From contig MU646476.1 in the NCBI GenBank assembly GCA_026770585.1, positions 10,510 to 31,899 on the forward strand: a stretch of 21,390 nucleotides of DNA, written 5' to 3'. Positions within the stretch are counted from its first letter, which is position 1. The number at the start of each line of letters is the position of its first letter. The DNA comes from Baffinella frigidus. Lineage: Eukaryota > Cryptophyceae > Cryptomonadales > Baffinellaceae. Positions 608-21,100 of the stretch are shown in pieces. Both the position numbers and the translations under genes were made by a program. The notes below the pieces were generated by a model. The model worked only from the letters and a program-made list of their open reading frames with translations. It was not told where the DNA came from and did not search any database.

Positions 608-698
608 CGTTTTGGAGGCAGGCGGCGAGGTTGTACTGCGCGCTCGGAATGCCGTGTGTCGCGGCCTTTTCAAACAGCTTCCGCGCCTCCACGGGATC
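608..698 (-). CDS. Exon 4 of the Sel1 gene
   Basis: This is a 91-nt exon with acceptor AAGCAG^GATCCC and donor AAAACG^GTACCA. It starts in phase 0 and ends in phase 1. It encodes DPVEARKLFEKAATHGIP, then SAQYNLAACLQNG, a canonical Sel1 repeat that continues the GWGRDK turn of exon 3. Neighbouring partial copies keep the donor as AACG^GTATGT, a better consensus than this copy's GTACCA. Which donor is used in vivo is therefore open. Confidence 0.7.
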
Positions 699-710
699 CT
701 GCTTCAGGGT

Positions 711-791
<81 letters not shown>

Positions 792-3700
792 GGTGGAGGG
801 TTTAGTTTTGCGAGAGATCGTGGGTCGTTCTTTATTGCGGGAAATGGTGCTCAGGGTTTACGGTGCGTCCTTTTCAAACAAGGTTCGCGCCTCCACGGGC
901 TCCTGTTTTAGGGTTTCGGGTTTCGGGTTTCGGGTTTAGGGTTTAGGGTTTAGGGTTTAGGGTTTAGGGTTTAGGGTGTAGGGTTTAGGGCTAAGGGGAT
1001 CCTGTTTTTTTCGCGGGAAATGGTGTGTGAGGTTTAAGGCGCAGGGTTCAGAGTTTGCGAGAAATCGTGCTCGGGGTTTACCAGTTCTGCCTAGCTCTGC
1101 GCCACTCGGGTCGACTAAATTTTGGAGCGTTTTTTAGTAAAAATGAGCTCGCCTTAAAGCACATTTAGAGCAGAAGACCCAGTTCAAACGGGCAACTGTA
1201 ATGCTTTCATGGCGAGCGCAGTTTTAATCAGGCAGGGGTACACCTTGCCACGCCCCATGCCGTTAATCTAAAAACGAGCAGACCGGAAGTTGATTCTCCT
1301 GTTTTTGTGGTTCAACTCCGCCAACTTTTGACGAGAAGACGATCAGTCTAACGGATTGAGACGGAGCTCGACCGTGTCACGCCCCTAAGTAAAATCGGGC
1401 CCGCCATAAACGTATGTTAAATGCAAATTTGTACCCAATTTTATGCTCTAAATGTACTGTCACGCCCCTGAGTAAAATTGGGCCCGCCGCAAACGTATGT
1501 AAGGTGCGAATTTGTACCCAATTTTATGCTCTAAATGTACTTTCACGCCCCTGAGTAAAATTGGGCCCGCCATAAACGTATGTTAGGTGCGAATATGTAC
1601 TAAATTTCCTGCTCTAACTGTACTGTACGGGGAGCCCGGTTGTACTAAGTTTCTTTGTAATAAACCTAAATTTGTTATAAAGTTATACTAAATTATTTTT
1701 ACTGAATTTCCTGCTCCAACTGTATTGTACGCCCAGTTTTACCTTGTCACGGCCCACGCCGTCGAGAGGACTTCTAAAATGCTTTAAATGCGTTCTAAAT
1801 TTCCTGCTCTAAATGTACTGTACGGGAAGCCCAGTTTTACAGTTTTACTGAGGGGAGGGGTAGACCTTGTCACGCCCCTCTCTGGTCTAGGGTTTAGGGT
1901 TTAGGGTTTCGGGTCCAGGGTTCAGGGTTGTTTCCCGGTGATCCATTTCCCAGTGATCCATTTCCCAGTGATACATTTCCCAGTGGTTCATTTCCCAGTG
2001 GTTCATTTCCCAGTGGTTCATTTCCCAGTGGACGGTCCAGGGCGAAGATGCCCAGCATGAACCTTGCGTATTTCCTGCTCTAAATGCGGGGATCCCAGTC
2101 TACCTTCGACGAGACGGTAGTCAATCACACCAGGAAAACGCTCAGAATCTGAGCGCTGTGCCAAAAGTTGACACAAGGTTCCATTGAAATTGACTTTTGC
2201 GATTGACCACCTTCAGGTCTAGGGTGTGTTTAGGGAGAGGTAGACCTTGTCACGCCCCCAGCCGTCGAGGGCGAAGATGCCCAGCATGAACACCGCGTGG
2301 TGGTTCCCTGCATCGTCCAACCAAGGTTCAGGGTTCAGGGTTCAGGGTTTATGGTACCACGCAAGATTCTAGGGCAGAGTGGCCCACAGGAGAAATAGTC
2401 GAATTCGACTATTTCTTAAGTTCATAAGTGGACATTCTTCCCACAGAACAATCGAATTTTCGGAAAGGTGTTACAAATTCCGTGTGAACTGGCTTGTTTT
2501 CCCAGGTCAGCCCTACACTCTTGCGTGGTTTATGGTTTATGGTTTATGGTTTATGGTTTATGGTTTATGGTTTAGGGAGAAGATTGCCAGCATGAACACC
2601 GCGTGGTGGTTCCCTGCATCGTCCAACCAAGGTTCAGGGTTCAGGGTTCAGGGTTCAGGGTTTATGGTATGTGGTTTAGGGTTCAGGGTTTGGGGTTTAT
2701 GGTACGTGGTTTATGGTTTATGGTTTATGGTTTACGGAGAAGATTGCCAGCATGAACCCTGCGTGGTGGTTCCCTGCAACCCAGGGTTCAGGGTTAGACT
2801 ACTCCCAAGTTGTCGTTCTGGGTTCGCGTGACAAATCCGTCAGATTTTTTTTGGGGGGGGAGCCCCGGTCTCACCGAATTGGTGAGACCGAAGGGGCTGC
2901 GATAGAGCAAACAGATCAAGGTCTGCCTGAGTAAATTCTGCGCTCGCCATACAGGATTTGGGGCTTAGGGTTTATGGTTTATGGTTTATGGTTTATGGTT
3001 TGGGGTTTGGGGTTTGGGGTTTGGGGTTTAGTGTTAAGGGTTAAGGGGTTAGGGCGAAGATGCCCAGCATGAATCCTGCGTGGTGGTTCCCTGCGACCCA
3101 GGGTTTATGGTTCAGGGTTTATGGTTCAGGGTTTAGGGTTTGGGGTTTAGGGTTTAGGGTTTAGGGTTTAGGGTTTAGGGTTTAGGGTTTAGGGTTTAGG
3201 GTTTAGGGTTTAGGGTTTAGGGTTCCCTCAGAGCATCGCGCGCGTCCCATCACAGTCTAGCGTTCAGAGTTTGAGGTGTAGGGTCTAGGGTGTAGGGTTT
3301 AGGGTTTAGGGTTTAGGGTCTAGGGTGTAGCGCTTAGGGTTTGAGGTGTAGGGTCTAGGGTGTAGCGTTCAGAGTTTGAGGTGTAGGGTCTAGGGTGTAG
3401 CGTTCAGAGTTTGAGGTTTAGGGTGTAGGGTGTAGGGTGTAGGGTTTGAGGTTTAGAGTGTAGGGTGTAGGGTGTAGGGTTTAGGGCTTAGGGTTCAGGG
3501 TTTGAGGTTTAGGGTGTAGGGTGTAGGGTTTAGGGTGTAGGGTTTATGGTTTAGGGTTTAGGGTTCAGGGCTGAACGGTTAAATAGGGAGAGCTCGCCTG
3601 CGTCGGCGACTTAGTGAGCAGCACGCACCCTAAACCCTAAACCCTAAACCCTAAACCCTAAACCCTAAACCCTGAACCCTGAACCCTAAACCCTAAACCC

Positions 3701-6700
3701 TAAACCCTGAACCTTAAACCCTGGACCCTGGACCCTGGACCCTAAACCCTAAACCCTGGACCCTGAACCCTGAACCACTCAAGCTTCCACGAGGTCCTTC
3801 TCCAGGCCAATCTCATCTGAAAACGGTTTTAATTTAAAACCTCAGGAATCAATGAAAATTACTGCACGAGTTCTTTAATATTACTAATAAAGATCATGTG
3901 GTGTAGTGAATTTCATAGCCAAGACGTTTTAAATCAAAATCGTTTTCATATGAAATCTCCAGGCCCATACAGCCCGTTGACTGAAACCTAAACCCATACA
4001 GCCAGTTGACTGAACCCTAAACCCATACAGCCTCTTGACTAAACCCTACACCCTCCAGGCCCATGGAGTCTGTCGACTGAACCGTAAACCGTAAACCCTC
4101 AAGCCTCAAGCCTCAACCGTAAACCCTCAACCCGCAAGGTTGGTTCGCAGCGGCACGATGGCGGAACCGCGGCAAGATTGCGCACCGGGGGCCGCGTTAC
4201 GAACCGGGGGTCAGGGCTTAACTCTGATCCTTCACCCCTGAACCCTCAACCCTCAACCCTGAAATCTGAACCCTGAACCTCAAAGGGTTGGTACCGGGGT
4301 TCAGGGCTTACACCAAACCACACGAGGCTACCTATAGGGTAGGATTGCGCACCGGGGGCCAGGGCGTGATGTAGGGGTGAGGTTGATTTAGGGGAGAGCT
4401 CGCCTGTTCCGTTGCAAGGCGCACAGCCTTTTGGATCACTCACCTCTAGGTCTGCGAGTAAATAAAGAAGGAAAAGAAGAACGTGCCTGTGTTGGTGCCG
4501 TACATCCTGGTGACTGAACTCTACACCCTAGACCAGGTTGGTTCGCAGCGGCACGATGCCGGAACCACGGCAGGGTTGAGCACCGGGGGGCAGGGCTTAA
4601 CGGTTTATTTAGGGGCAGGGTTAAGGCTTAACGGTTTATTGAGGGGCAGGGTTATTGGACAGGGTTAAGAACCGCAGCAGGGTTACGCAACGGGGGTCAG
4701 GGCTTAACTCTGAACCTTCACCCCTGAACCTTCACCCCTGAAATCTGAACCCTGAACCTCAAAGGGTTGGTACCGGGGTTCAGGGCTTATACCAAACCTT
4801 TGAGGTCCAAGGCTTAACGGTTTAGGGTTGAGGGCTGAAGGCTTAACGGTTGAGGGTTGAGGGTTCAGGGCTTAACGGTTTAGGGTTGAGGGTTCAGGGC
4901 TTAACGGTTGAGGGTTGAGGGTTCAAGGCTGAACGGTTCAAACCTTTGAAGGTCATTGCTTAACGGTTTATTTAGGGGTGAGCTGGGCTTCACGGTTTAT
5001 TCAAGGGTGATAACGGTTTATTCAAGTGTGAGCTCACCTGCGTCGGCAGACTGGGTGATCAGCACACACGCCTCCACGAGGTCCTTCTCCAACCCCATCG
5101 AGCCTTTCATGTACGCCATGCCGAGGTTGTACGCCGCGGTGTCATTCCCCTCATCCGCCTACAGGGGTTCAGGTGTAGGGTTTAGGTCCACGTACAGGGT
5201 TCCGGTTCAGGCTTTGGGGTGTGGGGTTTTGGGGGGTGGGGTATCGTTCCCCTCGTCCGCCTGTGGAGAGTCACATGAGTGGCTGGTTAGTCCTCGTCGG
5301 CCGCACTACCAAGGTCAGATCGGGACTTTTTTCACTAGAGGTACACCTCAGGAGTGAACCTCTGGTGAAAATTAGTACATGCACTAAATTTGACCAGAGG
5401 TTCACTTCTGAGGTGAAAATTAGTACATGCACTAAATTTCACCAGAGGTTCACTTCTGAGGTGTACCTCTAGTGAAAAAAAAGTCGCCAAATCCAATCCG
5501 AGCTAGTTCACTTCGGGTGGCTGGTAGAGCCAATGTGGTAGGACTTGGCCAGGGCGAACTTCGAAGTTACGAAGATGCGAACTTCTAGATGGACTCTTTT
5601 GGACATGTAGTGTTTTAAATTCAAATTTTGCAGTACAAATCATGGTGTTTACTATTAATTACGGTCCATCTAGAAGTTCGCATCTTGCAACTTCGAAGTT
5701 CGATTTGGCCAAGTCCTACCACATTGGCTCTAGGCGAGCGTCACATCCAACCCGAGCTAGTTCACGTCGGGTGGCTGGTGGAGGCCCATTGGGCCTGCCA
5801 AGGTTAATCTCCATACAAGTATTAATTAATTGCTTTTCGGCAACGAAAATTACAACACGATTTGCTCATAAAAGTAATAGTAGAGCGTTTGTGTAGTAAA
5901 TTTCGTTACGCCAAAAGCAATTAATTAATACTTTTGTGGAGAGGAAGGTTGTACTGGTAGGCGAGCGTCACATCCAACCCGAGCTAGTCCACTTCGGGTG
6001 GCTGGTGGAGGCCCATGGAGCCTGCCAAGGTCTACCCTGGAGGGGACTTGCGGCCAATCCCGAATAACCCTTTATCGCAAAAGTTGACAGGATTTGTACC
6101 ACTAAAATACTTGTAAGACCGTTTTGTACCAGATCCATTCATCACGGGGGACTGAGATCTCAGTCCATTCCAAGGGGAGTTGACTTAAGAATGCTCAAAA
6201 TACCCCCACCCTGCCTCCAGGGTGGTGTACGCCGCGGTGGCATTCCCCTCATCCGCCTACAGGGGTCAAGGTCCAGGGTTTAGGTCCACGTACAGGGTTC
6301 CGGTTCAGGCTTTGGGGTGTGGGGTTTTGGGGGGTGGGGTATCGTTCCCCTCGTCCGCCTGTAGAGGGTCACATGCGTGGCTGATTTAATCGCGGCGAGT
6401 GTTTATGATAAATACGCACCGGTGACGAAATTTACTACACAAATGGATCATACTAGTAATTATTGAAGCATTTGTGTAGTAAACTTCGTTGCCGGTGCGT
6501 ATTTATCATAAATACTCGTCCGGATGAGATTGGTTCTCGTCGGCCGCCCTACCAAGGTCTATGTCTTCTGAGCCGGACAAGAGCGAACCCCAAGGCAAAT
6601 TCGGCAACTTAAGATTATTTTGCCCACAGGGCGATCAAAATCTGATCGCCCGTGATGAATGGATTCTGGTACTAAATGGCCGTACAAGTATTATAGTGGT

Positions 6701-8890
6701 ACAAACGTGTTAACTTTTGCGATAAAGGGTTATTCAGCATTTGACCCCGGGTAGGCTCCTGTCCGGGTCCGTCTGGCAAGCCAACCATCGGTGTCAACGC
6801 TCGCTGGTAGGCCATGATACTAGTAATTATTAAAGCATTTGTGTAGTAAAATTCGTTGCCGGTGCGTATTTATCATAAATACTCGTCCGGATGAGATTGG
6901 TCCTCGTCCGCCGCACTACCAAGGTCTATGTCTTCTGAGTCCGTCTGACAAGTCTACCATCGGTGTCAACGCTCTCGCTGGTAGGCCATTTAGTACGCTC
7001 GCTGGTAGGCTATTTAGCGATCGCGGGTAGGCCATTTAGCGTCAACGCTCTCGCTGGTAGGCCATTTAGTGTCAACGCTCGCTGGTAGACCATCTACGAC
7101 ACGGCTATCGGGTTGCCTCCAGGGTGGCATTTTTGTTCACGAATGTTATCCGGGGAACCCTGTTTTTCTTTCATTTGATGGCAGCGAAAATTACTACACA
7201 AATCCTTTAATATTACTTGTAAGAACGAATTGTGCAGTAATTTTCCTTGCCATCAAACGAAAGAAAAATACGTTTCCCCGGATAAAATGCTCTCTTCACA
7301 AATGCTAACTGTGTCTTCCCGAGTTGGGAGCGGTTCTACAGCTGCCAACTCGGGAAGACATAATCTTCGACACGGCCATCGCCGAATGCATCACTCCTGC
7401 CAACGCTACAGGGGTCGTTGCAAGGGTCTGTGACCATCGTAGGGTTGCCGTGAGACCTTCACGTTCGAGCCCTGGGCTCAAAGTGCACTAAGTTTGTGCT
7501 TCGACGTCACACGTTCAATAAATTCTCTTCTCTCATTACCGTTCAGGGTGCAGGGTTCAGGGTGGGGGGTGGGGGGGTGGGGGTTTAGGGTTTGGGGTTT
7601 AGGGTTGCTAGCTCTGTCTCACACGGTTTGGTCTCGCCAATTTGGCGAGACCGGAAGTCAATTCCCCGGGGGTTTGGTGTAAATCCGTCAACTTTTGGAG
7701 TGACCACGATCATTCAACCGGAGTCAGGCAGAGCTAGGTTACTTAGGCGACAGATGTTCGGAATGGAGGTAGGCTTGCTCACTTCACTCGGAGTCAGAAC
7801 ATTTCGCCTAAGTCAACTCCCCCTGAAAGCTAGCGCCTTATGTCAAATGCCGTCCATGGTGGCCAGGTCCATCTAAACGAAAACAGGGGAAAGTTGACTT
7901 AGGTGAGCTGGTTGACTTGGCTGAAATCTTGTGGCTCGGAGTGCACTTGCTCAATGCTCTCTTCCCAAATGCTTGTTCACAAATGCTCTGTTCACAAACT
8001 GACGGAGCATTTGTGAACCAGCATTTGTGAAGCGAGCATTCGTGAACAAAAATGCCACCCTGGAGGCAACCCAGGGGCAAACCTGGAGACATCTATTGGG
8101 CAAATCGATGGTTTCTCAAGTCAACTCCCGTTACAAATGCCACCCGGATCGGGTGGCATCTGCGGGAGATTGACCTACGATTTGCCCCTGGGTTGCCTCC
8201 AGGGTGGCATTTTTGTTCACGAATGTTAAAATGCTCTCTTCACAAATGCTGGTTCACAAATGCTCCGTACGGATCTTGGCGCGCTCGACCACGTGGAGGT
8301 GCATAGGTATGGGGGGATCCGTCGGAACGGATCCTGGCGAGGCACGTTACGAGCCATGTCACAGCTGTTGACTTTTGTATTCCACCCTGGAGGGGACTTT
8401 AACTTGCGGCCAATCCCGAATAACCCTTGCGGGATTGGCCGCAAGTTAAAGTCCCCTCCAGGGTGGAATACAAAAGTCAACAGCTGTGACATGGCTCGTA
8501 ACGTCCATCGCCAGGATCCGTTCCGACAGCACGAGAACCCCCCTCCCCTGCAGCAGTCCTCCCCAGGTCCTTCTAACCCTCTCCGTGGGAGAGAAGCACC
8601 TGCTTCCGAATCGCCGCCCGCGTCTTCTCCATGGTCCCACCCATCGTGACCTTCGTGCCCTCATCCACGACGGACGCAGGTGCTTCAGCCCCAAACGCCA
8701 TCGCCCGCACCTGCCCCGCTCCGCGCAACGCCCTTCCCCGCCGCGCCGCCACTGAGCCGTCCCTCGCACCGGACTGCCACGGCGACGCCGCAGCGGTCTG
8801 CGACGCCGCAAAGGCGCGGGTGCTGAACGAGCGGGGCGTCGAGGAGCGCACAGCGGCGCCAGGGAGGAGCAGCGCCCGCCTGATGAGCAT
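608..8890 (-). CDS. Mitochondrial-type Sel1-repeat protein gene, 4 exons seen, 3' end outside window
   Basis: Gene model built by eye: exons complement(8600-8890), (5038-5158), (2246-2307), (608-698), continuing left of the window. Exon 1 ends in phase 0 with RAAIRKQ. Exon 2 starts in phase 0 with ADEGNDTAAYNLG. Exon 2 ends in phase 1 and exon 3 starts GG AAC CAC in phase 1. Exon 3 ends in phase 0 and exon 4 starts GAT CCC in phase 0. The joined reading gives Sel1-like helix pairs (x-Q-A-x-x-G-x-x-x-A-x-Y-N-L-G-x-x-Y). Family knowledge: Sel1 repeats are TPR-like adaptor scaffolds, and some, such as COA7, act in mitochondria. The N-terminus here resembles a mitochondrial transit peptide, so a mitochondrial Sel1 scaffold is the best inference. 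Three introns of about 3.4, 2.7 and 1.5 kb are packed with broken exon copies, heptamers and hairpins. Exons that I could not see may exist. Confidence 0.7.
708..990. repeat. Heptamer arrays TTGAGGG and TTTAGGG/TTTCGGG
   Basis: 708-792 is about twelve TTGAGGG units. 908-985 is TTTCGGG turning into TTTAGGG. The G-rich strand is on top, opposite to 81-396. Confidence 0.85.
866..910 (-). pseudogene. Broken 5'-part copy of Sel1 exon 4
   Basis: On the minus strand, TAAAACAG^GAGCCC then EPVEARTLFEKDAP, ending in unrelated sequence. The acceptor half is kept and the donor half is missing. The copy lies upstream of intact exon 4, opposite to the copies at 21-485. Confidence 0.6.
1376..1626. repeat. 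Three tandem copies of an 83-bp unit
   Basis: Units start at 1376, 1459 and 1542 with (G/T)TCACGCCCCT and end in TTTTATGCTCTAAATGTACT or a degenerate form of it. Related TTTCCTGCTCTAAATG pieces follow at about 1700, 1800 and 2066. The units differ from each other by scattered substitutions. Confidence 0.85.
1931..2034. repeat. 15-bp tandem repeat TTTCCCAGTGGTTCA
   Basis: Six to seven copies of TTTCCCAGTG(G/A)(T/A)(T/C)CA, ending next to a truncated Sel1 exon 3 copy. No coding meaning is apparent. Confidence 0.85.
2246..2307 (-). CDS. Exon 3 of the Sel1 gene
   Basis: This is a 62-nt exon with acceptor GATGCAG^GGAACC and donor GACAAG^GTCTAC. It starts in phase 1 and ends in phase 0. It completes SADAG from exon 2 and reads NHHAVFMLGIFALDGWG then RDK. 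That is the second helix of a Sel1 repeat plus the conserved G-W-G/R-D turn. It is the only copy in the neighbourhood with both an acceptor and a donor; seven or more truncated copies surround it. Confidence 0.72.
2391..2416. repeat. Perfect 26-bp palindrome
   Basis: AGAAATAGTCGAA followed by its exact complement, with no loop. It lies in Sel1 intron 2 between two heptamer arrays. Confidence 0.9.
2576..3100 (-). pseudogene. Three broken 5'-part copies of Sel1 exon 3
   Basis: Copies at about 2576-2621, 2734-2779 and 3053-3096 each start CAG^GGAACCACCACGC on the minus strand. They read NHHA(V/G)FML(A/G)IF before running straight into TTTATGG or TTTAGGG heptamers. All keep the acceptor and lose the donor, and all lie upstream of intact exon 3. 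Confidence 0.62.
2861..2898. repeat. GGTCTCACC hairpin
   Basis: AGCCCC-GGTCTCACC-gaatt-GGTGAGACC-gaa-GGGGCT. The same hairpin recurs at 7630-7652 (GGTCTCGCC-aattt-GGCGAGACC) and degenerately at 9640-9660. Each has a (G)TCAACTTT(T)GGAG-like or CAAATCCGTCA element nearby, so it is a small hairpin family. Confidence 0.8.
3101..3572. repeat. Long TTTAGGG/TGTAGGG array
   Basis: About 470 bp of G-rich heptamers. A pure TTTAGGG core at 3136-3222 is followed by TGTAGGG, TCTAGGG and TTGAGGT variants with a short higher-order repeat (GTTCAGAGTTTGAGGTGTAG). Unique sequence of about 55 bp then separates it from a C-rich array at 3628. Confidence 0.85.
3594..3812 (-). pseudogene. 3' part of Sel1 exon 2 split by a telomere-like array
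   Basis: Minus-strand LEKDLVEA lies at 3783-3807 and a VADAG^GC-like exon end at 3588-3627. The two are separated by about 150 bp of CCCTAAA/CCCTGAA/CCCTGGA repeat. The exon end keeps GACGCAG followed by GCGAGC (a GC donor) and has gained a stop. Another GCGAGC end occurs near 4395-4405. Confidence 0.5.
3628..3776. repeat. CCCTAAA/CCCTGAA/CCCTGGA array
   Basis: C-rich heptamers face the G-rich array that ends at about 3572, a head-to-head layout. The array lies inside a copy of Sel1 exon 2. Confidence 0.85.
3818..3948. mobile_element. Core A hairpin element, 131 bp
   Basis: The termini are TGAAAACGGTTTT and its complement, with TA at the right (3949-3950) and TC at the left. The centre carries core A arms around TTTAATATTACTAATAAA. 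It is the same length and family as 20531-20661. It abuts a broken Sel1 exon 2 copy. Confidence 0.8.
3960..4300. repeat. Degenerate repeats around CCCATACAGCC(A/T)(G/C)TTGACTGAACC
   Basis: Four CCCATACAGCC/CCCATGGAGTC units at 3963-4080, then CCTCAAG and CCCTCAAC heptamers. A GGTTGGTTCGCAGCGGCACGATG segment at 4139 recurs at 4538. GTACCGGGGTTCAGGGCTTA recurs at 4291 and 4771. No gene is evident; this is intron 2 of the Sel1 gene. Confidence 0.6.
4440..5030. repeat. Intronic repeats, GGCTTAACGGTT family
   Basis: About 10 copies of GGCTTAACGGTT(T/G) interspersed with TTGAGGG and CAGGGTT units, and the duplicated GGTTGGTTCGCAGCGGCACG block. I see no exon here with both splice sites. Confidence 0.6.
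5038..5158 (-). CDS. Exon 2 of the Sel1 gene: one full Sel1-like repeat
   Basis: This is a 121-nt exon. The acceptor reads CCTGTAG^GCGGATGAG and the donor GACGCAG^GTGAGC. It encodes ADEGNDTAAYNLGMAYMKG, then a Gly-Leu-Glu-Lys-Asp loop and the helix VEACVLITQSADAG. This is a textbook Sel1 pattern (A-Y-N-L-G, Y-x-x-G, E-K-D, E-A). A CTAAC branch-point-like sequence lies upstream of a duplicated acceptor copy at 5261. Partial copies of the first seven codons differ almost only at third positions (GAT/GAC, AAT/AAC), which supports this strand and frame. Confidence 0.78.
5129..5288. repeat. Segment duplicated at 6227-6383
   Basis: About 160 bp is nearly identical to 6227-6383, offset by about 1.1 kb. 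Each copy holds two minus-strand starts of Sel1 exon 2 separated by a G-rich stretch (GGTGTGGGGTTTTGGGGGG). In this copy the left start belongs to intact exon 2. The second start (5243-5260) is truncated after ADEGNDT. Confidence 0.7.
5324..5485. repeat. Nested inverted and direct repeats
   Basis: Outer arms are GACTTTTTTCACTAGAGGTA and its complement. Inside are two 48-bp direct repeats, each with AATTAGTACATGCACTAAAT (itself a near palindrome) and a GAGGTTCACTTCTGAGGTG segment that also pairs with the left arm. The left arm can fold with any of several partners. Confidence 0.8.
5527..5730. mobile_element. TA-flanked hairpin element, core B type, 204 bp
   Basis: The termini are GAGCCAATGTGGTAGGACTT and its complement, with TA on both sides (5525-5526, 5731-5732). 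Arms of about 80 bp include GCGAACTTCTAGATGGA. The centre has a TACAAAT remnant of core B. It sits in the repeated GAGCTAGTTCACTTCGGGTG block. Confidence 0.85.
5807..5944. mobile_element. Core A hairpin element, ATCTCCA..AAAGTATTAATTAATTGC family
   Basis: Arms are CAAGTATTAATTAATTGCTTTT and complement, with core A inside. It is flanked by AAGG on both sides. Removing it restores GCCAAGGTTGTACTGG, read on the minus strand as QYNLG. The sister element is at 19482-19623. Confidence 0.8.
6060..6165. repeat. Left member of a separated inverted pair with 6640-6745
   Basis: AATAACCCTTTATCGCAAAA plus about 85 further bp matches the reverse complement of 6640-6745 with roughly 85 percent identity, about 500 bp apart. 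It contains two GTACCA sites and GTTGACAGGATTTGTACC. The start of the block recurs in the palindrome at 8321-8527. Confidence 0.75.
6227..6383 (-). pseudogene. Duplicated broken 5' parts of Sel1 exon 2
   Basis: Second copy of 5129-5288. The minus strand reads ADEGNDT after TACAG^ (6358 leftward) and ADEGNATAAYTTLEA after TGTAG^ (6256 leftward). The latter runs into a CCTGCCTCCAGGGTGG hairpin half. Both keep the acceptor and lose the rest of the exon. Confidence 0.6.
6406..6508. mobile_element. TA-flanked core A element, 103 bp
   Basis: The termini are TGATAAATACGCACCGGTG and its complement with TA on both sides. The centre is core A around ATACTAGTAATTATTGAAGC. The host flanks (GAGTGTT and AATACTC) also pair, so the insertion point looks like the middle of an older palindrome. 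Confidence 0.85.
6450..6939. repeat. Direct duplication 6450-6572 / 6817-6939
   Basis: About 123 bp, including the right half of the core A element and the downstream CGTCCGGATGAGATTGGT and CTACCAAGGTCTATGTCTTC, is repeated 367 bp to the right with over 95 percent identity. The second copy therefore has only half an element. Confidence 0.85.
6964..7097. repeat. Tandem repeat (GTCAACGCT)CTCGCTGGTAGGCCATTTAG
   Basis: Five degenerate units of 22-31 bp. GGTGTCAACGCTCGCTGGTAGGCCAT also occurs once at 6790. No protein repeat is convincing in any frame. Confidence 0.85.
7149..7282. mobile_element. TA-flanked core A element with an empty site
   Basis: The termini are TCCGGGGAAMCSTRTTTTTC (both ends, consensus) with TA at 7147-7148 and 7283-7284. 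The inside has ATGGCA, core A and an exact TAATATTAC at 7208-7216. The paralogous sequence at 8214-8250 reads GTTCACGAATGTTAAAATGC with no element. This proves precise insertion at TA. Confidence 0.9.
7312..7360. repeat. Hairpin TGTCTTCCCGAGTTGG
   Basis: 16-bp perfect arms (7312-7327, 7345-7360) with a 17-nt loop. Confidence 0.85.
7365..7990. other. Unassigned intronic stretch
   Basis: It contains the GGTCTCGCC hairpin (7630-7652), a G-rich heptamer run (7540-7605) and an imperfect inverted pair built on ACTTAGGCGA (7740-7822). A short plus-strand open stretch (FDTAIAECITPANATGVVAR at about 7366) has no splice or family support. I see no exon. Confidence 0.4.
8002..8268. repeat. Long inverted repeat, about 80-bp arms
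   Basis: Arms 8002-8081 and 8181-8268 share GGAGCATTTGTGAACCAGCA, GAACAAAAATGCCACCCTGG and GGCAACCCAGGGGCAAA. The loop holds a small perfect hairpin, ATGCCACCC-ggatc-GGGTGGCAT (8137-8159). Overlapping open frames here on both strands are artefacts of the dyad. Confidence 0.88.
8321..8527. repeat. Near-perfect 207-bp palindrome
   Basis: Arms 8321-8418 and 8430-8527 are almost identical. The main mismatch is CGAGGCACG against CGATGGACG. The loop is 11 nt (AATAACCCTTG). It includes GTTGACTTTTGTATTCCACC and GCGGCCAATCCCG. It lies in intron 1, 73 bp downstream of the Sel1 exon 1 donor. Confidence 0.92.
8600..8890 (-). CDS. Exon 1 of the Sel1 gene: presequence and first helix
   Basis: The ATG at 8890-8888 opens a 97-codon, GC-rich exon that begins MLIRRALLLPGAAVRSS and continues PRSFSTRAF. 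It is rich in Arg, Ser and Ala with no acidic residue in the first 43, typical of a mitochondrial transit peptide. The end reads GTMEKTRAAIRKQ and is followed by CAG^GTGCTT, a donor at 8599-8598. This gives phase 0. The frame stays open upstream to an in-frame ATG at 8986, but the 8890 start puts the presequence at the N-terminus and is preferred. The overlapping plus-strand frames have no splice or homology support. The segment VVDEGTKVTMGGTMEKTR matches no family I know. Confidence 0.68.
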
Positions 8891-9055
8891 GTTCGCCCGT
8901 TGAATGCAGTCCACGCCCCAGCGAGTGCTCGCTGGCGTCAACTTGACGAAAGTTGACAGACAAAAGTCACTTGACAGCTGTGACATTTGACGAACTCCTC
9001 GGTGGTGGGGGCGAAAGGCGAAACTCCTTGAACTGACAGGGCAAGGCCAGAGGGA
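8891..9055. promoter_or_regulatory. Divergent start region between the two genes
   Basis: Only 165 bp separate the two opposed start codons. The interval has no clear TATA box. It carries repeated TTGAC motifs (CAACTTGACGAAAGTTGACA, CTTGACAGCTGTGACAT). The string ACAGCTGTGACAT recurs in the right arm of the large palindrome at 8321-8527, as its reverse complement in the left arm. A shared bidirectional promoter is inferred only from position. Confidence 0.45.
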
Positions 9056-9124
9056 ATGTCGGCGGAGTACCTTGCCAAGGTGCAGGCGCTTCAGGCGCGC
9101 CTCCAGAGCGAGCTCGCCATTCAG
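9056..9124 (+). CDS. Exon 1: N-terminal coiled coil
   Basis: The ATG lies in AGGGAATGTCGG and opens 23 codons, beginning MSAEYLAKVQALQARLQSEL. Leu, Val and Ala spacing suits a coiled coil. The donor is ATTCAG^GTTCCC in phase 0. The frame runs to a stop at 9182-9184 if unspliced. It is divergent from the Sel1 gene. Confidence 0.6.
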
Positions 9125-12100: not shown

Positions 12101-15100
12101 GTGATAGTGATTTTATTTCACTATCACATGTGAAGGCGAAATGAGGGAGACACGGGGGGAATGGGGGAAAGTGATAGTGAGTTTGCTCCGAACACGGACA
12201 GCCCCCCCCCAACATTCTTCTTATTCATTACCCTCGTACACCACACGAGAATGCAAGAGGAGCCTTTTTAAAACCAGGATAATTTTATGTGGCATTTGTG
12301 TAGTAACTTTCATTGCCCTTGGAGCCACTGAAGCCATGAGTAGGCCAGTTACGAGGTTGGGATACCCTATCCTGGTACAAACTTTTACAACCCCGCATGT
12401 AAATAGGCCCCTCTACCATTCTCGAGTGGCAGGCTCCGTAAACAGGTCTTAACCTTCTGAAAAAGTGATCAATCTGACATTTTTGTTTGCTCCGATTACG
12501 GGCAGGTTCCCCCAAAACGGGTTCGGGTACTGGTCTTGTTTGATTTCATCCGGTCAGGTATTTGATTTAAATGGTTCGGAGTCCCCCCGAATGAACGAAA
12601 TTTTCTACACATTTGTCACGTCCAGCCCTTATTATTACTAGTATGGTCAAACGTGCAGTAAATTTCGTACATTCGGGGGACTCCGAACCATTTAAATCAA
12701 ACACCTGACCGGATGAGATTGGGCACATCAGGTTCCCCCCAACATTCTCCCTCTTCATTGTCCTCGGTCAGGCCCTGTAAGCACCCAACTCACCAACTCA
12801 CAACTTTTGAAAAAGTGATCAACTTACTGACCACTCACCGTTTGCTCCGAATACTTGACTAGACTCAACTCGAGGCCGGTACAGGCCCTGTAAATAGGTC
12901 TTAACCTTTTGAAAAGTGATCAATCTGACTTCTTTGTGTGATCCGAATTCGGGCAGGTTCCCCCCAACATTCTCCCTCTGCATTGTCCTCGTACAGGCCC
13001 TATAAGCAACCAACCAACTGACTCACCACTTTTGAAAAAGTGATCAACTTACTGGCCACTCACCGTTTGCTCCGAACTCGGGCAGGTTCCCCCCGACATT
13101 CGCCGCAGAGTTCTACCAGGAACCTCTTCACGCTCACCACCAGAGGGCAAAGCCCCAGAAGGTCATCATTCACATCCCACCAACCCTCCGAAGTGGACCA
13201 AATCTCGTCACGCAAGCTTCCAGCCCTGGAGGGCTTTTCTGAGCCCTGAAGCGGATCAAATCCCTTTTCGAGGCCTGAAATGTTTCAAAGTCTGAAAAAG
13301 GGGTGAGTGTAGAGGGGATTTGATCCGCTTCAGGTCCCAAAAAGCCCATCAGGGCTGGAAGCTTGCGTAAGGAATTCACATCCCACCAACCCTCCGAAGT
13401 GGACCAAATCGTGAATCCGACTTTTTGGATTGCTTAGCACCAGGGTGCACAGCCTCAGAAGGTATTCCACTTAGCAGCCACCGAGTTCTTCACGGATGCA
13501 GTTCATCTAAACGATTTGTACTAGAATCTTATCCATTGCTATGGATTCCAACCGGAATTTCCCCCGAGAATCCCAGAAGGTGCCGTTACCCCCCCCACAC
13601 ACGAAATGCAAGGTGTAAGAAAACAAACGCGTGGCAGGATTTTGGATATGGGTACAACCTCTTCATGATTGCCACTAGAGTGCAGAGCCCGAGAAGCTTA
13701 TACCCATATCCAGCATCCGGTTAGCACCAGAGTGCAGAACTTACTACGCCAGAATGATCGAGGGAAACCGACGCCTTATCCGCGTCAGATCTGACGCGGT
13801 TGACTTACGAATTCAAGGCATTTGCCTTGAAAGATGTCGAAAGTGGATGTTTCGAGTGCCCTGGCGTGGTAGCACCAGAGTGCAGAGCTTAGCTCCAGAG
13901 TGCAGAGCGCATGCCTACCACCAGAGCCTGCAGAGCCCGAGAAGGTACACATTCCCATCCAGCAACTGCCAGAACAAGAATTGCCCGGCTTTGAAGCTTT
14001 TTGAAGGGCGTTCGGGGTAGCCGCGTCTGGATAATATTGTACTTGTCGGGTCAGCGCGGATTTTCTCGAGGTCGGGTCGGGGTGTCGGGAAATGAAAATC
14101 TCGATAATTGGTGCGTCCATCTAAAGTTTTATGCTATCTTATGCATTGATATGATGACAAGATGCACCCCCCACCCATAATATGTCACAAATACTAGAGC
14201 CCTTTGTCGATATTTTCGATTTTTCCCGACTCCCCGACCCCGACCCAAAATCCGCGCTGACCCGAAAAGTACAATACTGAGCACGAACCTCTTCATTCTT
14301 TCCACCCGAGTGCAGAGCCCCGGGAAGTTACCCATACCCAAACTTCTTCTTCTTCCCTATGACTCTCGATACCGGTCCTAGATAGGCCCTCACGCCTTGA
14401 GTTGAGCGATACAATCGTCTATGCGCCCTAACCAACCAACGCCCCCGGGAGCAGCGCGTTGGATGACAGCTGCTATGATGCATTTTAAAATGCAGTTCTT
14501 TGGATGATAGAGCGTTTGCGGTAATTGTTGTCCGTTTTGGACTTGCGGGTTTCCCGTTTTCCAATTTTGATTTGTACCAGAAGTGTCCATTTAAAGTTCG
14601 TAAAACATTTTAAATGGACACTGCTGGTACAAATCAAAACCGGGAAACGGGAAAACCGTGTGTCCAAAACGGACAACAATTACCGCAAACGCTCTAGCAC
14701 ATCCGTTAACGTTACATTTACTGACCGCTGTCCCCGGGAGCAGCTCGTTGGATGACATCCGGCCCAGCCCTCCGCTCGATACGTGGTCTCCTAAACCATC
14801 ACCCCCAAACCTTCGACCCCTAAACTCCAAACCCTGCTCCGGGGAGCAGCTCGTTGGAAGACAGCAGGGACAGAGTGGTACAATAAGTCTATGCACCCTA
14901 ACCAACCAACGCTCCCGGGAGCAGCTCGTTGGATGACATCCGGCCGAGCCCTCCACTCGACACGGTTCTCGAACCTGCTGCCAAGGTGCGCGCTTGCCTG
15001 CCTCTCTAATTTAACTTGTTGAACGTATGACGTCAAGCCACTTTTTGCTATCTTAGGGGTGGTTTTAATCGTATGTTAAAGCCGTGTGTTAAAGGTCGAG

Positions 15101-18100
15101 GCTAAGATAGCAAAAAAATCGTATGTTAAAGGTCGAGGCTAAGATAGCACTTCCACCCGTAAGATAACACCTCCTCTCGACACAGTGCTCGAACCTGTTG
15201 CCAAGCCGCTGTCGAGCCAACTCGGCACATATAAGACAGCCAGGACCGGGATTTCGGTCCTGGCTTTCCATTTTAAAAGTCCATCTCCTTCAGGATTCAG
15301 GTTAAAGTTTTTAAAATCGTGTCCCGTCCTGGCTCGGTAGCGGTTCGCGTTCTTGCCCTCTCGCTTGATTTTATCCCGCGTGATGGTCCTCTCGCACGGC
15401 TGCCTCTCGCTTGGTTGATGGGCGATTGCTGGCCCTGCTAATGCGAAAAGCTTACGTTAACGGACCCCTTAAGTCCCTCGTTAACGTGGGCTTGCCAGCT
15501 CTAAAACGATTTTAAAAGCGATTTCATGGCTTTTAAAGCCCAAGAATGTTTTCCATTATAAATTTTGTACCAAAGTTACTACTCCGTTAACGTAAGCTTT
15601 TTGCATGACTGCGCGTGGTGCTTGATTGCTAGCCCTGAGACGGTGCTCGAACCTGCTGTGAAGGTTCGCTTTCTTGCCTCTTTAATTTTAACGTCCGCGT
15701 CCGTTTTGTGCGAAGGTACTACCTCGACGCTAGAGCCCTTGAAAATGCACCGATCGACTTTTTGGTGGGGACATGTGCAATTCCCCCCTCAGACCACACG
15801 AGGCGGATCAACCACCCTTTTTAAAACCCGGGGAGCTGTACAAGTGAGGCCGTGTGCAGTAATTTTCACATGTTTGGTCACGTGTCGACCCGCTTTTCGG
15901 GGGGGACACGTGACCAACTCCGTACAAAACGCCTACAATCGATATTTAAAAAGGGCGCTTGGTTAGCCTCGTGTGGGAGGACCACGAGGAGGGGTCCGTT
16001 ACGTGGAAGAAGAAGAAAAAACAGCCGTTACGAAGCGTAACGGCTGTTTTTTTTTGCGCGCGTAACCGCCGGCTGGTAGTAGTCGGCACGGACTGCACCA
16101 CCAACCCTCACGGTTTGGGCAAATGGTCGAATTTGGCGGTACGTAATGCCCTGGGATGAAGTCGGATTCCGACGTCGGTTATTTTTAAAACTCCAAAAGT
16201 AGGGTTTTTAGAGTTTCAAAACTGGTACGTAATTTCCCAATTGCCCAAACCGTGAGGGCTCGTGGCAGGTTTGGGGTTTTCTGTAGTCCCAGCGCAGTGT
16301 ACTTCTTAATTCAGTAAAGCGACTCTCTCTCTCACCGCCGACTTGTGTGTTGGTTCGAGCCCTCTCTGGACGCCTTAAGTTTATGGTCCGACGTCATAAG
16401 TTCAGTAAAAGTCTCTTCGCTTAAGTTGACATGCTGGGTTTGCCTCAAGTTGACATGCTGGGTTTGCGTGTGGGTGCAGGGTGGGGCAGGAAAGAGACGG
16501 GCCTCGACCTCTGCTGGCAGGGTACGCGCTCCAATTTCATCCCGGACCTAAATAGATTTAATTTCGGGAATGTCCTTCTAAACGAAGATTTGTACCAAAA
16601 ACTTTTAGGGCTTTAAAATATTCGTGGTTTTAGGGCTTGAAAATATCTGGATTTGTACCAAGAATCGTTTAGAAGGACAGTTTCCGAAATTAAATATATT
16701 CAGGTTCGCGAAGAAATTGAGTCATTCACTCACGTCCCAAAGCAAATGTGTAGTAATTTCGTGACTGAATGACTCAATTGACGCACTTTCCCTTTCCATG
16801 CTGCGACTTTCCCCAGTGCGAGTTTCAGTGTGGTTATTTTTTTCCTGTTTTTTTTGGTTTCAATGTGGTTATTTTTTTCCTGGGTTTTTTCCTTGTTTTT
16901 TTAGGACCTCCTCGTCCTCTGGTAGGGTACGGTTTCGCTCCAAAGTTGACGGGTTTGTACCGCAAAACCAGCAGGTCAACTTAAGTATAGCCAGAATCAT
17001 CTGGCCATCCACTCGAGGCTGGAAGAGGCAGTATTTTAAATGTGGGTTCTTTGAAATTTGTACCAGTCACGGGCGGGCTTGGTCACGTATCTGGGGGAAT
17101 TCCCCCAAATACGTGACCGAACGCCCCTCTTTGTGTGAAACTAACTACACAGCGGTCCACTTGTAAAGGACTTGTTGAGTTAAAACTTTTAAAATAGTCA
17201 CATTTCTAGCCTCGAGTGGATGTCCCACTGCAAGTTCGTTAGAAAAGGCTGCAGTTTCTGGACCCTTGTTTGACCATCAATTGATGGTCTAAGGACCCCT
17301 TAGACCATCAACTTGATAGTCAAAAGTTCGCAAAGGAGTTTTAAAAAATCTGGATTTTCAAAATTTGTACCAGGAATTGACTTTTGGACTTAATCAAGGG
17401 GCCAGAAACTGGGGCCTTTTCTAATTCAAGTGTGTGGAAATTTTCGTGCATGCGGGGACCTTCCGACGCCTTTGCAATAAATGCCTGGCGAGATGAGAGT
17501 CGCGTCCTTGGTGGGTAGCTCGAGCGTATCGGGGGAGGAAAAAAAGAGGTTATGTAGGTTCATAACCTGATAACCGGTTATGTTCATAGCGACGCAACCT
17601 ATACTTAGTTTTGTAAAGTAACTCTTTCCTGGTACAAATTATAAAACAAGACCTCGTTTAAAAAGGAATTGGAGCCCTTTTTAGTTTTAAATGGACCTTG
17701 TTTGATAATTTGTACCAGAACGAGTTGCTTTACAAAACTATTCATAGGTTGCGTCGCTATTAATGTGGGTTCATATCCTGATATACCTGAGGGTGTCTTG
17801 CAGGTTGGCGCTATGATCTTCAAGCTGTCAAACGTGTTCACGGGCGATCGTTCCACTGTAGCATCCCCAGGCACACCCTACACCCTACACCCTACACCCT
17901 ACACCCTACACCCCAAACCCTAGAACCCTAAAACCCTAAAACATGAAGAGTCTTACACCCTACACCCTACACCCTAGAACCCTAGAACCCTAAACCCTAG
18001 AACCCTAAAACCCTAGAACCTCAAGAGTCGAACGTGTTCACGGGCGATCGTTCCACTGTAGCATCCCCAGGCACAACCTACACCCTACACCCTAAACCCT

Positions 18101-21100
18101 AAGCTCTAAACCCTAAACCCTAAACCCTAGAACCCTGGAACCCTAGAACCTCAAGTGTCAAAACGCGTTTGGGGGCGATCGTTCCCCCGTAGCATCTCCA
18201 GGCAAAACCTACACCCTAAACCCTAAGGTCTAGAACCTCCAGAGAAAACGTCAACTCTAGAATCTCCACGCGAGCCTCCATGACGGTTTATTGGACGGGG
18301 TAGTGAGGTAGTGATTTTCGGGCGCTGAGAGCCCGAGTTCCCGTTACCTTATCCGTAGGAACCCGCCTATGTCCTTACGGGTTGCCTACTGTAGGGTCCT
18401 AGGTCTTGTCGCGTAGGGGTCATTCAAAATCCCTTCGAAGTCCGCTGTGTGGCTAGGGTTTCGCGGAGACAAAGAGGGAATGGCCTCCCGCGCCCCCACC
18501 CCGCTAGCACCCAACGACCTACCCCGCCCCCTAACCCCTAAACCCTAAACCCTAAACCCTAAACCCCAAACCCCAGGTGTTCAGATAGGTGCAGGTTGTC
18601 TGATATCTGATGTATGCAGGTTTCGCGCCGATGCGGGAGGACGCGAAAACACCCATTAAAGTCTTTGATCCGTCCGCCGCGCGAGAAGAGCCAGGTGGCT
18701 ACCCCACCCAGGATTGTTGGGGGGGGGTAATTGATTTGATTAGGATTCATAAGTAGAATTACTTATGCCATAGTAATTTCTCCTATGAGTTCTCTTATGA
18801 AGCCATGCAAACCCTCAGCCCCGTGGTGTGATGCACTGCCAACCTGCGTCCGCCTCGACCTTTACTGTCCTTTTTTTCTCATCTGGTGGCCGCGCGAAGA
18901 CGCCCATTAAAGTTCATAGGCTAACGGCCTGAAAATGGGGTAGTTAGGCCTACGGTAGGAGGTCCTAGGCAATAGGCTTACGGCATTGCCTAGGACCTCC
19001 TACCGTAGGCCGAGGGATCCTAGGGCCAAAAAGTCTCGGCCTACGGTAGGAGGTCCTAGGCAATCCCGTAGGCCTAACTACCCCATTTTCAGGCCGTTAC
19101 CCTATTAAAGTCTTCACGCCATCCGCCCACGCATCTCCATTATAGAGTATTCCTTATCTCCCTTATCCTATTATATAGTCTCCCTTATCTCCCTTATATG
19201 TTATTACTTATCTATCTTATCTCCCTTATCTGTTATTACTTATCTCTCTTATCTCCCTTATCTGTTATTACTTATCTCCCTTATCTCCCTTATTTGTTAT
19301 TACTTATCTCCCTTATCTTATCAATTATGTATAGTTCTAACCATCCGTCCTGCGAGGGGAGTCACGTTGCAATCAATTGCTTTTGGCCGATCCATTTGCC
19401 CCCTCGGTATCCGAGCAAGGACACTCTCTCCAGGATGGACGGGGGCGTGGGGCTGGATGGAGCCCCCGGGTGGACTCCATAATCTCATCTCCACAAAAGT
19501 ATTAATTAATCACTTTCGGCGCAACGAAATTTACTACACAAATGCTCTTCTAATACTTTTATAAGCAGATCGTGTGGTAATTTTTGTTGCCCAAAAGCAG
19601 TTGATTAATACTTTTGCGGAGATTAAAGTGTTCACCCCGTCCGCCCCGCCTGAGGAGACAGGTTGCAAACCTTCTCTTCTTCCAGAAAGCCAGATCTGGC
19701 TATTTCTTCTATGAGCTAGTCAGCTCTACACTCTTGCGTGGCCATGCCCACCAGGTTAAAGACAGAACGGGTTTGTAGCAAGAAAAGGCCGTGTTAAGGT
19801 CTCTCTGTTGTCTTCTCTTCTTCTGGATCACCCTCACATGGTGTGCACCAAGGAGACCTCGAGAGAGGCCCCCCAGCCTTTTGAAAAGTGATCAACTTAA
19901 TACTACTCTGATACCGGTTGCAAACCCTGAACCCTAAACCCCATACCCTGAACACCGAACACCGAACACCGAACACCGAACCCTAAACCCCATACCCTGA
20001 ACCCTGAACGCAGAACACCGAACACCGAACCCTAGACCCTAGACCCTAGACCCTAGACCCTAGACCCTAGACCCTAGACCCTAGACCCTGAACCCTAAAC
20101 CCTAAACCCCAAATGTGAGAGGAGCCAGGTTGCTGCCTCTTCCCACACATTAGTGTCCGAGGCAATGCAATTCAAACCGCCTGTTATGCTATCTTAAGGG
20201 TAAATTTTGTCAGATTTTGCTGTTTTAGCGTCGACACAGCTTTACAACAGGACAAAATCCACCCTAAGATAGCAAAAGCACGGTTGAACTTGCATGGCCT
20301 AGGACACTAACATGTGCCACTCAGAAGGCTGCAGGGGCCACTTTTGGAACTGGAGCCGTTTCTTCACTTTGTATTGACAATTGGTCACGTTGCTCGCGGG
20401 TGTCCGGGCTGAGTGGTCATACGGTTTGGGCAAATGATCGAATTTGGCGGTACGTAATGCCCTTGCAAGTCGCCGGATTCCGGCGTCGGTTATTTCCTGA
20501 GCGTCTTGTTCGGAGGTCTCTGATCTCATATGAAAACGGTTTTGGTTTAAAATTCCTGGACAGTGAAATTTACTACACAGCATGACATTTATTAGTAATA
20601 TTAAAGCATTCGTGTAGTAATTTCCATTGATTCCCAAGGTTTCAAATCAAACCCGTTTTCATATGAGGTCTCGCCAACGCTCCCACCCCCACGCAGGACC
20701 GAACGTATATTCCATTGCCCTGCATGAAATTTACTACACAGCATGATATTTATTAGTAATATTAAAGCATTCGTGTAGTAATTTCCATTGATTCCTAAGG
20801 TTGATAGACTCCGGGGGCGTGTACACTCGCGGGGCGCCTCTGGGAGGCGACACGCGAGAGCAGAAAGATGCTCCAGAGAGTCACCTACCCAGAGTCATAT
20901 ATCACCGAGTATACAACAGTATACGAAGATTTTATACGAGATCTCGCCAACGCTCCCACCCCCCAGGGTGCGGTGCGGGGCCCCCCCAAACAAATCAGGA
21001 TATCTGGATAATAGTCCGTCAACCCGACTGAGAAAGAGCTAGAGAGTGGTCGTACGACCTCACTCTCGGCGTCCCTGCTCAGACACGCCTCTGCGGGTGT

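Follow-up and report, generated by a model that had tools for sequence, protein, structure and literature searches.

Truncated copies of exon ends in Baffinella frigidus introns: the geometry of local duplication and a candidate staggered-break origin

How introns lengthen and how they originate are old questions for which few readable events are available. The closest precedents for the case described here are the neo-introns of Daphnia pulex and an intron of the potato RdRp gene. In Daphnia, neo-introns have been attributed to the repair of staggered double-strand breaks, with internal repeats in 55 of 90 new introns (PMC4202315), a model that is also reviewed elsewhere (PMC3443670). The potato intron was gained by a tandem duplication across an intron-exon boundary (PMC4974935). 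In addition, rice insertions of 10-1000 bp have been put down to asymmetrical nicks and the repair of the resulting breaks (Vaughn and Bennetzen 2014, summarised in PMC7407515), and small tandem duplications by fill-in at break ends (PMC8355091). Here, we analysed a stretch of 21,390 nucleotides from the genome of Baffinella frigidus (the window; C174:10510-31899, contig MU646476.1, in an assembly of 382,457,362 bases and 1364 contigs), in which one gene of eukaryotic structure lies on each strand. Several intact exons of both genes are flanked by truncated copies of their own ends, and the breakpoints of these events are still visible, in unrelated genes as well.

To locate the copies, the two ends of each of 12 putative exons (M and P for the minus and plus genes) were aligned, with gaps, to the same-strand sequence within 2.5 kb upstream and downstream. 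All 14 upstream copies comprise the acceptor side followed by the exon's 5′ part, and all 17 downstream copies hold its 3′ part, 14 of them extending past the donor; two further pieces are internal, both downstream. The reversed and antisense controls of this search gave no matches. Four matches to flanking intron only, re-sightings of a copy by the other probe and a match between P5 and P6 were left out of these counts. An ungapped search concurs with the gapped one and adds one internal downstream piece of M2 (3774-3813). The truncated copies and the side rule that a sequence-only reading of this DNA had described are, hence, real. One apparent exception is the end of putative exon P6 (16480-16521), which is similar to that of P5; rather than an exon, P6 is probably a further downstream copy of P5.

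In the minus gene (all coordinates on the minus strand), M2 (5038-5158, a Sel1-repeat exon that aligns with the homologs P0004 and P0005) has three upstream copies, at 6226-6272 (acceptor and exon 5′ 31 nt, score 79), 6338-6371 (score 33) and 5240-5262 (score 31), the last two with the acceptor and exon 5′ part. Its single downstream copy (3590-3813) consists of exon positions 58-98 and of 89-121 plus the donor, with a telomere-like array between the pieces. Up to eight copies occur per exon, as in M3 (2246-2307). Three lie upstream, with the acceptor and the exon 5′ 40, 38 and 40 nt, respectively (3051-3094, score 73; 2736-2778, score 61; 2574-2633, score 105). An internal piece (exon 16-44; 2035-2062, score 51) lies downstream, together with four copies, at 1853-1878 (score 47), 1364-1385 (score 29) and 1230-1263 (score 38), each with exon end and donor, and at 1741-1766 (exon 3′ part and donor, score 37). 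The Sel1-repeat exon M4 (608-698) has one upstream copy (865-922, acceptor and exon 5′ 38 nt, score 67) and three downstream copies, one made of exon 14-47 and 57-91 plus donor (409-489) and two holding the exon 3′ 40 nt and donor (167-209 and 23-65, score 76 each). The same rule therefore applies to M2, M3 and M4 on the opposite strand, as had been proposed.

In the plus gene (plus strand throughout), four upstream copies of P4 (13086-13161) were found, at 12182-12217 (acceptor side and exon 5′ 16 nt, score 42), 12486-12513 (acceptor side and just 8 exon bases, score 41), 12729-12750 (score 34) and 12939-12975 (acceptor and exon 5′ 19 nt, score 54), and a fifth, at 11982-12029, appears in a self-BLAST comparison. 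Downstream, there are four: 13432-13463 and 13917-13960 (exon 3′ part and donor, scores 34 and 41), 13656-13696 (exon 3′ 41 nt, the match ending at the exon end, score 42) and 14282-14321 (exon 31-71, score 40). Five upstream and six downstream copies had been claimed for this exon; the upstream number holds with the self-BLAST copy included, and the downstream number does not. For P5 (14925-14985), the claimed three upstream copies (14435-14468, score 58; 14733-14783, acceptor and exon 5′ 40 nt, score 87; 14836-14863, score 46) and two downstream copies (15170-15205, exon 3′ 36 nt, the match ending at the exon end, score 52; 15637-15681, exon 3′ part and donor, score 46) were recovered. The exons called 6 and 7 in that reading, P7 (17804-17870) and P8 (18620-18694) here, indeed have downstream copies only, those of P7 at 18027-18090 (score 118) and 18156-18221 (score 74) and those of P8 at 18893-18913, a piece broken by a foldback element at about 18913-19109 that has a flanking short repeat by eye, and at 19622-19666 (exon 3′ part and donor, score 35). 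Within 2.5 kb on each side, no truncated copies were found for M1, P1, P2 and P3. The donor position is GC rather than GT in P7 (window 17871) and in the downstream M2 copy (3590-3628).

The putative exons rest on splice logic and, in the minus gene, also on Pfam Sel1 and homologous proteins. This gene encodes a leader followed by Sel1 repeats; its first exon, M1 (8600-8890, minus strand), is a mitochondrial-type leader by eye with homologs P0002, P0003 and P0006, and the joined M2-M4 translation scores 63.1 bits against the Sel1 profile (cut-off 30.7). The plus gene spans from about 9056 to past 18694; its protein matched no Pfam family and gave no match in a protein-database search at E values up to 1. 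An Rfam scan yielded no match at the gathering threshold.

The same pattern was then sought elsewhere in the genome, in exons that Pfam profiles had placed in protein-kinase and TCP1 genes (49 exons in 22 loci), under one rule for a discovery set (nine loci, 22 exons) and a replication set (thirteen further loci, 27 exons). Copies are present for 26 of the 49 exons (14 in the discovery and 12 in the replication set) and in 15 of the 22 loci, a proportion that is not a genome-wide rate, the exons being hand-picked and the loci chosen as multi-exon genes. After array-like matches were dropped, 22 upstream copies with the 5′ part and 24 downstream copies with the 3′ part remained, and none on the wrong side, which extends to other genes the side bias by retained half. 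The discovery set contributed 10 upstream and 14 downstream copies, with one near-whole-exon upstream copy and one internal piece; a copy at L070 (-4 to 90 of 105) is classed as whole by the rule though the exon end is missing. The replication set contributed 12 upstream and 10 downstream copies and two internal downstream pieces, and its polarity came out as predicted beforehand. No copy was found at seven of the 22 loci (L065, L075, L077, L080, L082, L083 and L084). Kinase-profile matches on C811, C546, C477 and C28 fall in open frames of 7,968 to 46,653 codons, which may reflect masked sequence or simple repeats.

The array and low-complexity filter behind these totals was made after wrong-side matches had been seen and was applied to all sides alike. 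Before filtering, the replication set held three wrong-side matches (upstream with the 3′ part), all at L081 and all telomere-like array. Besides these three, the filter removed three downstream-3′ and two upstream-5′ matches in the replication set and one upstream-5′ match in the discovery set; two of the consistent copies removed (L074 and L076) look genuine, with an array attached. Among the controls, the comparison of each exon with one wrong locus gave two matches in 49, which we read as conserved kinase-motif homology, and the reversed and antisense controls gave one and three matches, respectively, in the replication set and none in the discovery set; a first pass on the nine loci had given one antisense match (L071, score 76). 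A separate set of 32 partly overlapping loci, kept outside the totals, gave 12 matches, namely, four downstream-3′ (one array-like), two upstream-5′ (both array-like), five internal and one on the wrong side (L050, score 34, at threshold and GC-rich), together with one antisense control match (L058). That analysis assumed the orientation of the match strand; L005 is in fact contig-oriented and others may be too. A strand flip exchanges upstream-5′ and downstream-3′ copies, so the consistency count is unaffected. In summary, the proposal of repeated local duplication at splice junctions, leaving long introns lined with decoy-like splice sites, is supported in the window and in other genes.

We considered whether the copies could be ordinary alternative exons or Sel1-repeat paralogs. 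Sel1 repeats do cause some of the long-range similarity between M2 and M4. However, the counted copies hold at most one splice site each, P0004 and P0005 contain the M2-M4 stretch without extra units, and the kinase and TCP1 genes show the same pattern, which leaves this explanation with next to no credence.

The fixed sides had been taken to contradict tandem duplication, but a duplication running from the exon into the flanking intron yields exactly the observed polarity. When a stretch that starts in the upstream intron and ends within the exon is duplicated, the upstream copy carries the acceptor and the 5′ part; when it starts within the exon and ends in the downstream intron, the 3′ part and the donor are found in the downstream copy. 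The AGGT model, which had served as the contrast, treats duplications lying wholly inside an exon. In a simulation that set the duplicated stretch at 28-95 bp and the exon at 60-140 bp, flanking duplication gave both observed classes as well as events inside the exon, which are damaging in this geometric argument, and spanned a whole exon in just 1% of cases. Random-side pasting of exon pieces, in turn, gave the wrong side in half of the cases and was rejected, as 0 of the 46 copies counted after filtering lie there. The observed polarity thus follows from the geometry of local duplication and exon conservation. These suffice, and the side rule does not point to a mechanism directed at junctions; what looks like a strict rule of splice junctions can arise from duplication geometry and protein conservation.

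A process that duplicates outward from each junction, for example through transcription-coupled damage or RNA, was the earlier interpretation, and the counted copies do adjoin a junction. However, the copies run from the flanking intron to inside the exon, reaching into both, and a pair of the same form lies wholly within an intron, a 37-bp perfect direct repeat (37/37) at 13168-13204 and 13374-13410 (plus strand) around a foldback element; the pairs at L072 and L076 (7-317) likewise lie outside any identified exon. In addition, selection would conserve the exon originals, making junction copies the easiest to see. An outward process is not needed to account for the ladders, and we regard it as very improbable.

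To characterise recent events, we listed young pairs, that is, direct repeats of at least 28 bp and at least 92% identity that are not simple repeats, in 247 kb; 59 rows were reduced to 45 by keeping one pair per first copy, the list being entered by hand (L007 and L076 begin at or near the locus edge, and L005 2890 is tandem beyond the edge). The repeat length is variable rather than fixed, with a median of 50 bp, a range of 28 to 188 bp and quartiles of 35 and 76, and the spacing has a median of 126 bp, the middle half being 85-176 bp. Just 2 of the 45 pairs (3 counting L005/L086) are closer than 10 bp, the copies of the others not being adjacent. In three of the 45, a foldback occupies at least 90% of the spacer (window 13168-13410, window 5731-6031 and L005 1875-2184). 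The second of these consists of 74-bp direct repeats (95%) around the foldback element 5808-5942, and at 5485-5783 direct repeats of about 45 bp are flush with the foldback element 5525-5732. In L005, 67 bp (1875-1941/2118-2184, 66/67 identical) that cross an acceptor into an ion-channel-like exon (Ion_trans match of 17 bits, under the 25-bit cut-off) are doubled around a 176-bp spacer. Young pairs at kinase exons are found at L081 3058-3273, L074 1031-1266 and 2263-2497, and L070 2679-3001, and spacers in L074 and L067 hold a trimmed piece of an inverted-repeat element.

These spacers bear on a rival account, in which junction-spanning units were duplicated in plain tandem, diverged and later received mobile elements in their spacers. 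Such duplication yields the same polarity and has one precedent in potato (PMC4974935); moreover, a tandem unit occurs at L005/L086, exon end, donor and intron start are arrayed six times over at L067, and the upstream P4 units have intron in common (12729-12851/12954-13076). However, adjacency is rare among the young pairs, a foldback fills the spacer in the three cases above, and at an identity of 92% or more, a spacer within the unit should still match the flank. We therefore moved from plain tandem duplication, which is rather unlikely as the sole account, to insertion with duplication. The variable repeat length, the mixed and sometimes trimmed inserts and the spacers fit with the repair of breaks made by offset nicks.

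In the reading that we favour, with a probability of about 0.58, local insertions and duplications arising by a staggered-break route doubled their target, and the truncated copies are what this doubling left. Offset nicks would produce a staggered break, and fill-in of the overhangs would double the stretch between the nicks, about 30-95 bp, usually with other DNA between the copies, as trimmed mobile elements, foldback elements or other sequence would be captured before joining. With a stretch across an acceptor, the outer copy would hold the acceptor and exon 5′ part, and the inner copy would restore acceptor and exon; with a stretch across a donor, the inner copy would be the intact exon, and the outer copy would hold the exon 3′ part and donor. 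In both cases, the outer copy, with one splice site only, would end up in the intron, leaving the protein unchanged, and the event could persist, while most stretches confined to an exon would be lost. Repeated rounds may then build the ladder and the long introns, with plain tandem duplication acting alongside staggered-break insertion. Both the break mechanism and the disregard of the copies by the splicing machinery are what we infer from the pattern.

Several observations weigh against this reading. The content of the spacers was tested for 36 of the 45 pairs (nine with small, large or array-like spacers were excluded by hand) and mostly looks like ordinary sequence: dispersed-element matches occur in 17 of 36 spacers versus 116 of 300 random segments, and only foldbacks are enriched (8/36 versus 23/300, p 0.01). 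Since the spacers were compared with 233 kb of the 382 Mb only, insert donors go unseen. Long flush repeats flank 10 of 70 element copies and 158 of 3896 random intervals. Four of these ten copies, however, had served as probes precisely on account of such repeats; their removal leaves 6 of 66 (p 0.05) and, with window 5807 also dropped, 5 of 65 (p 0.19). Owing to these self-chosen probes, the test does not support the insertion model, our confidence in which was lowered accordingly, and the resulting lack of a clear long-repeat preference also speaks for plain tandem duplication. The abundant 173-bp element described below has 2-bp end repeats in 17 of 21 distinct copies (by eye). Finally, plain tandem events exist, at L008 (gap 0), L046 and L005/L086, in the last of which the repeat and its insert together form a unit of about 205 bp that recurs.

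The minus gene offers a possible link to intron gain. P0004 and P0005, open reading frames on other contigs (79% and 76% identical), are continuous across the M2|M3 and M3|M4 boundaries, although they seem, by eye, to enter introns elsewhere. The introns at M2|M3 (2.7 kb) and M3|M4 (1.5 kb) are therefore absent there, and these introns could have been either gained in the window gene or lost in the homologs. The M2|M3 intron is preceded by the exon end CGACGCAG and itself ends with CGATGCAG. This 7/8 match is the only candidate for the mark of the AGGT model, an upstream exon end just before the acceptor, and may hint at a short target repeat. We tentatively suggest that introns grow chiefly by target-doubling insertions and that the same events within exons sometimes create introns, maybe in M2-M3-M4. 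If so, events that straddle a junction would be neutral, the exon being rebuilt, while junctions would keep being replaced and exons would become islands among their own ends; intron length and intron gain would be one and the same mutational process, legible as a fossil record. The visible breakpoints also make it feasible to count, across one genome, how long the duplications are, where the inserts come from, in which order they arose and how decoy sites are used.

The likeness of CGATGCAG to CGACGCAG also speaks for introner-like transposons with unusually long and variable target duplications, as do the spacers that consist of foldback or terminal-inverted-repeat elements flush with the repeats. 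Against such transposons, 60 of the 70 copies of the same elements are without long flush repeats, the repeat length ranges from 28 to 188 bp, the spacer elements of L067 and L074 are trimmed, and for 18 of the 36 spacers the sample contains no matching element, foldback or array, which makes this origin quite improbable. Target duplications of one transposon family were rejected as the source of the copies: the 173-bp element, with its 2-bp repeats in 17 of 21 copies, has a long repeat in only 1 of 21 scored copies (both gaps within 30 bp). This element lies at window 2356-2529, has inverted ends ACCACGCAAGA/TCTTGCGTGGT and is matched, at 89-98% identity, in at least 39 other places.

About thirty near-palindromic foldback elements (33 intervals, hand-listed from self-BLAST) occupy the introns of the window. 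They have a common central GAAATTTACTACACA-like core (17 matches with at most three mismatches versus 0.08 expected) and family-specific outer arms, as, for example, at 3810-3957, 6396-6518, 7143-7288, 12543-12719, 19487-19623 and 20522-20670. A search for the core gave no match in viral contigs and matches at two bacterial loci in genome contigs. The M1 homolog P0006 continues, by eye, into translated sequence like the foldback region at window 8046-8303, which suggests a relative with the same foldback element near the same exon. The introns also contain long telomere-like heptamer arrays (216-396, 706-802, 3100-3776, 17873-18226 and 19922-20113), one of them between the two pieces of the M2 copy. 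An 83-bp unit in three tandem copies lies in a minus-gene intron (1375-1626), and one of these copies overlaps a stretch like the M3 exon end.

The ladders resemble the Daphnia neo-introns in the insertion with flanking direct repeats, the repeated rounds in introns and the passive lengthening (PMC4202315). They differ in that the exon-shared repeats are 4-12 bp there and tens of bp here, and in that the repeats here straddle existing junctions and leave truncated exon copies, no ladder being described in the accessible part of that paper. In potato, the intron 3′ end and the exon 5′ side are doubled, as here, and the downstream copy has the working acceptor; however, that event concerns one gene, with no spacer mentioned in the accessible text, and a cryptic donor makes the new intron, whereas many exons are affected here, with spacers between most young copies and with donor-side copies too. 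Break repair in rice has likewise been linked to local inserts and to duplications that are wholly or partly tandem, though the accessible summary mentions no exon-junction pattern (PMC7407515). Direct repeats near intron splice sites have been attributed to insertion with break repair as well (PMC11782384), but they measure 4-30 bp (mean 11.4 bp) and lie at the two borders of one intron, whereas those described here are longer, number several per exon and are truncated inside the exon. Introners share inverted-repeat elements tied to introns; their target duplications are 3-9 bp where seen, and most families gain splice sites from the element or the target (PMC9860276), in contrast to the long repeats and the old, doubled splice sites of the present ladders. 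AGGT-type tandem duplication also doubles splice signals, but it acts within an exon and creates a new intron. In the literature searched, with most subscription papers outside it, no description of such ladders on a genome-wide scale was found.

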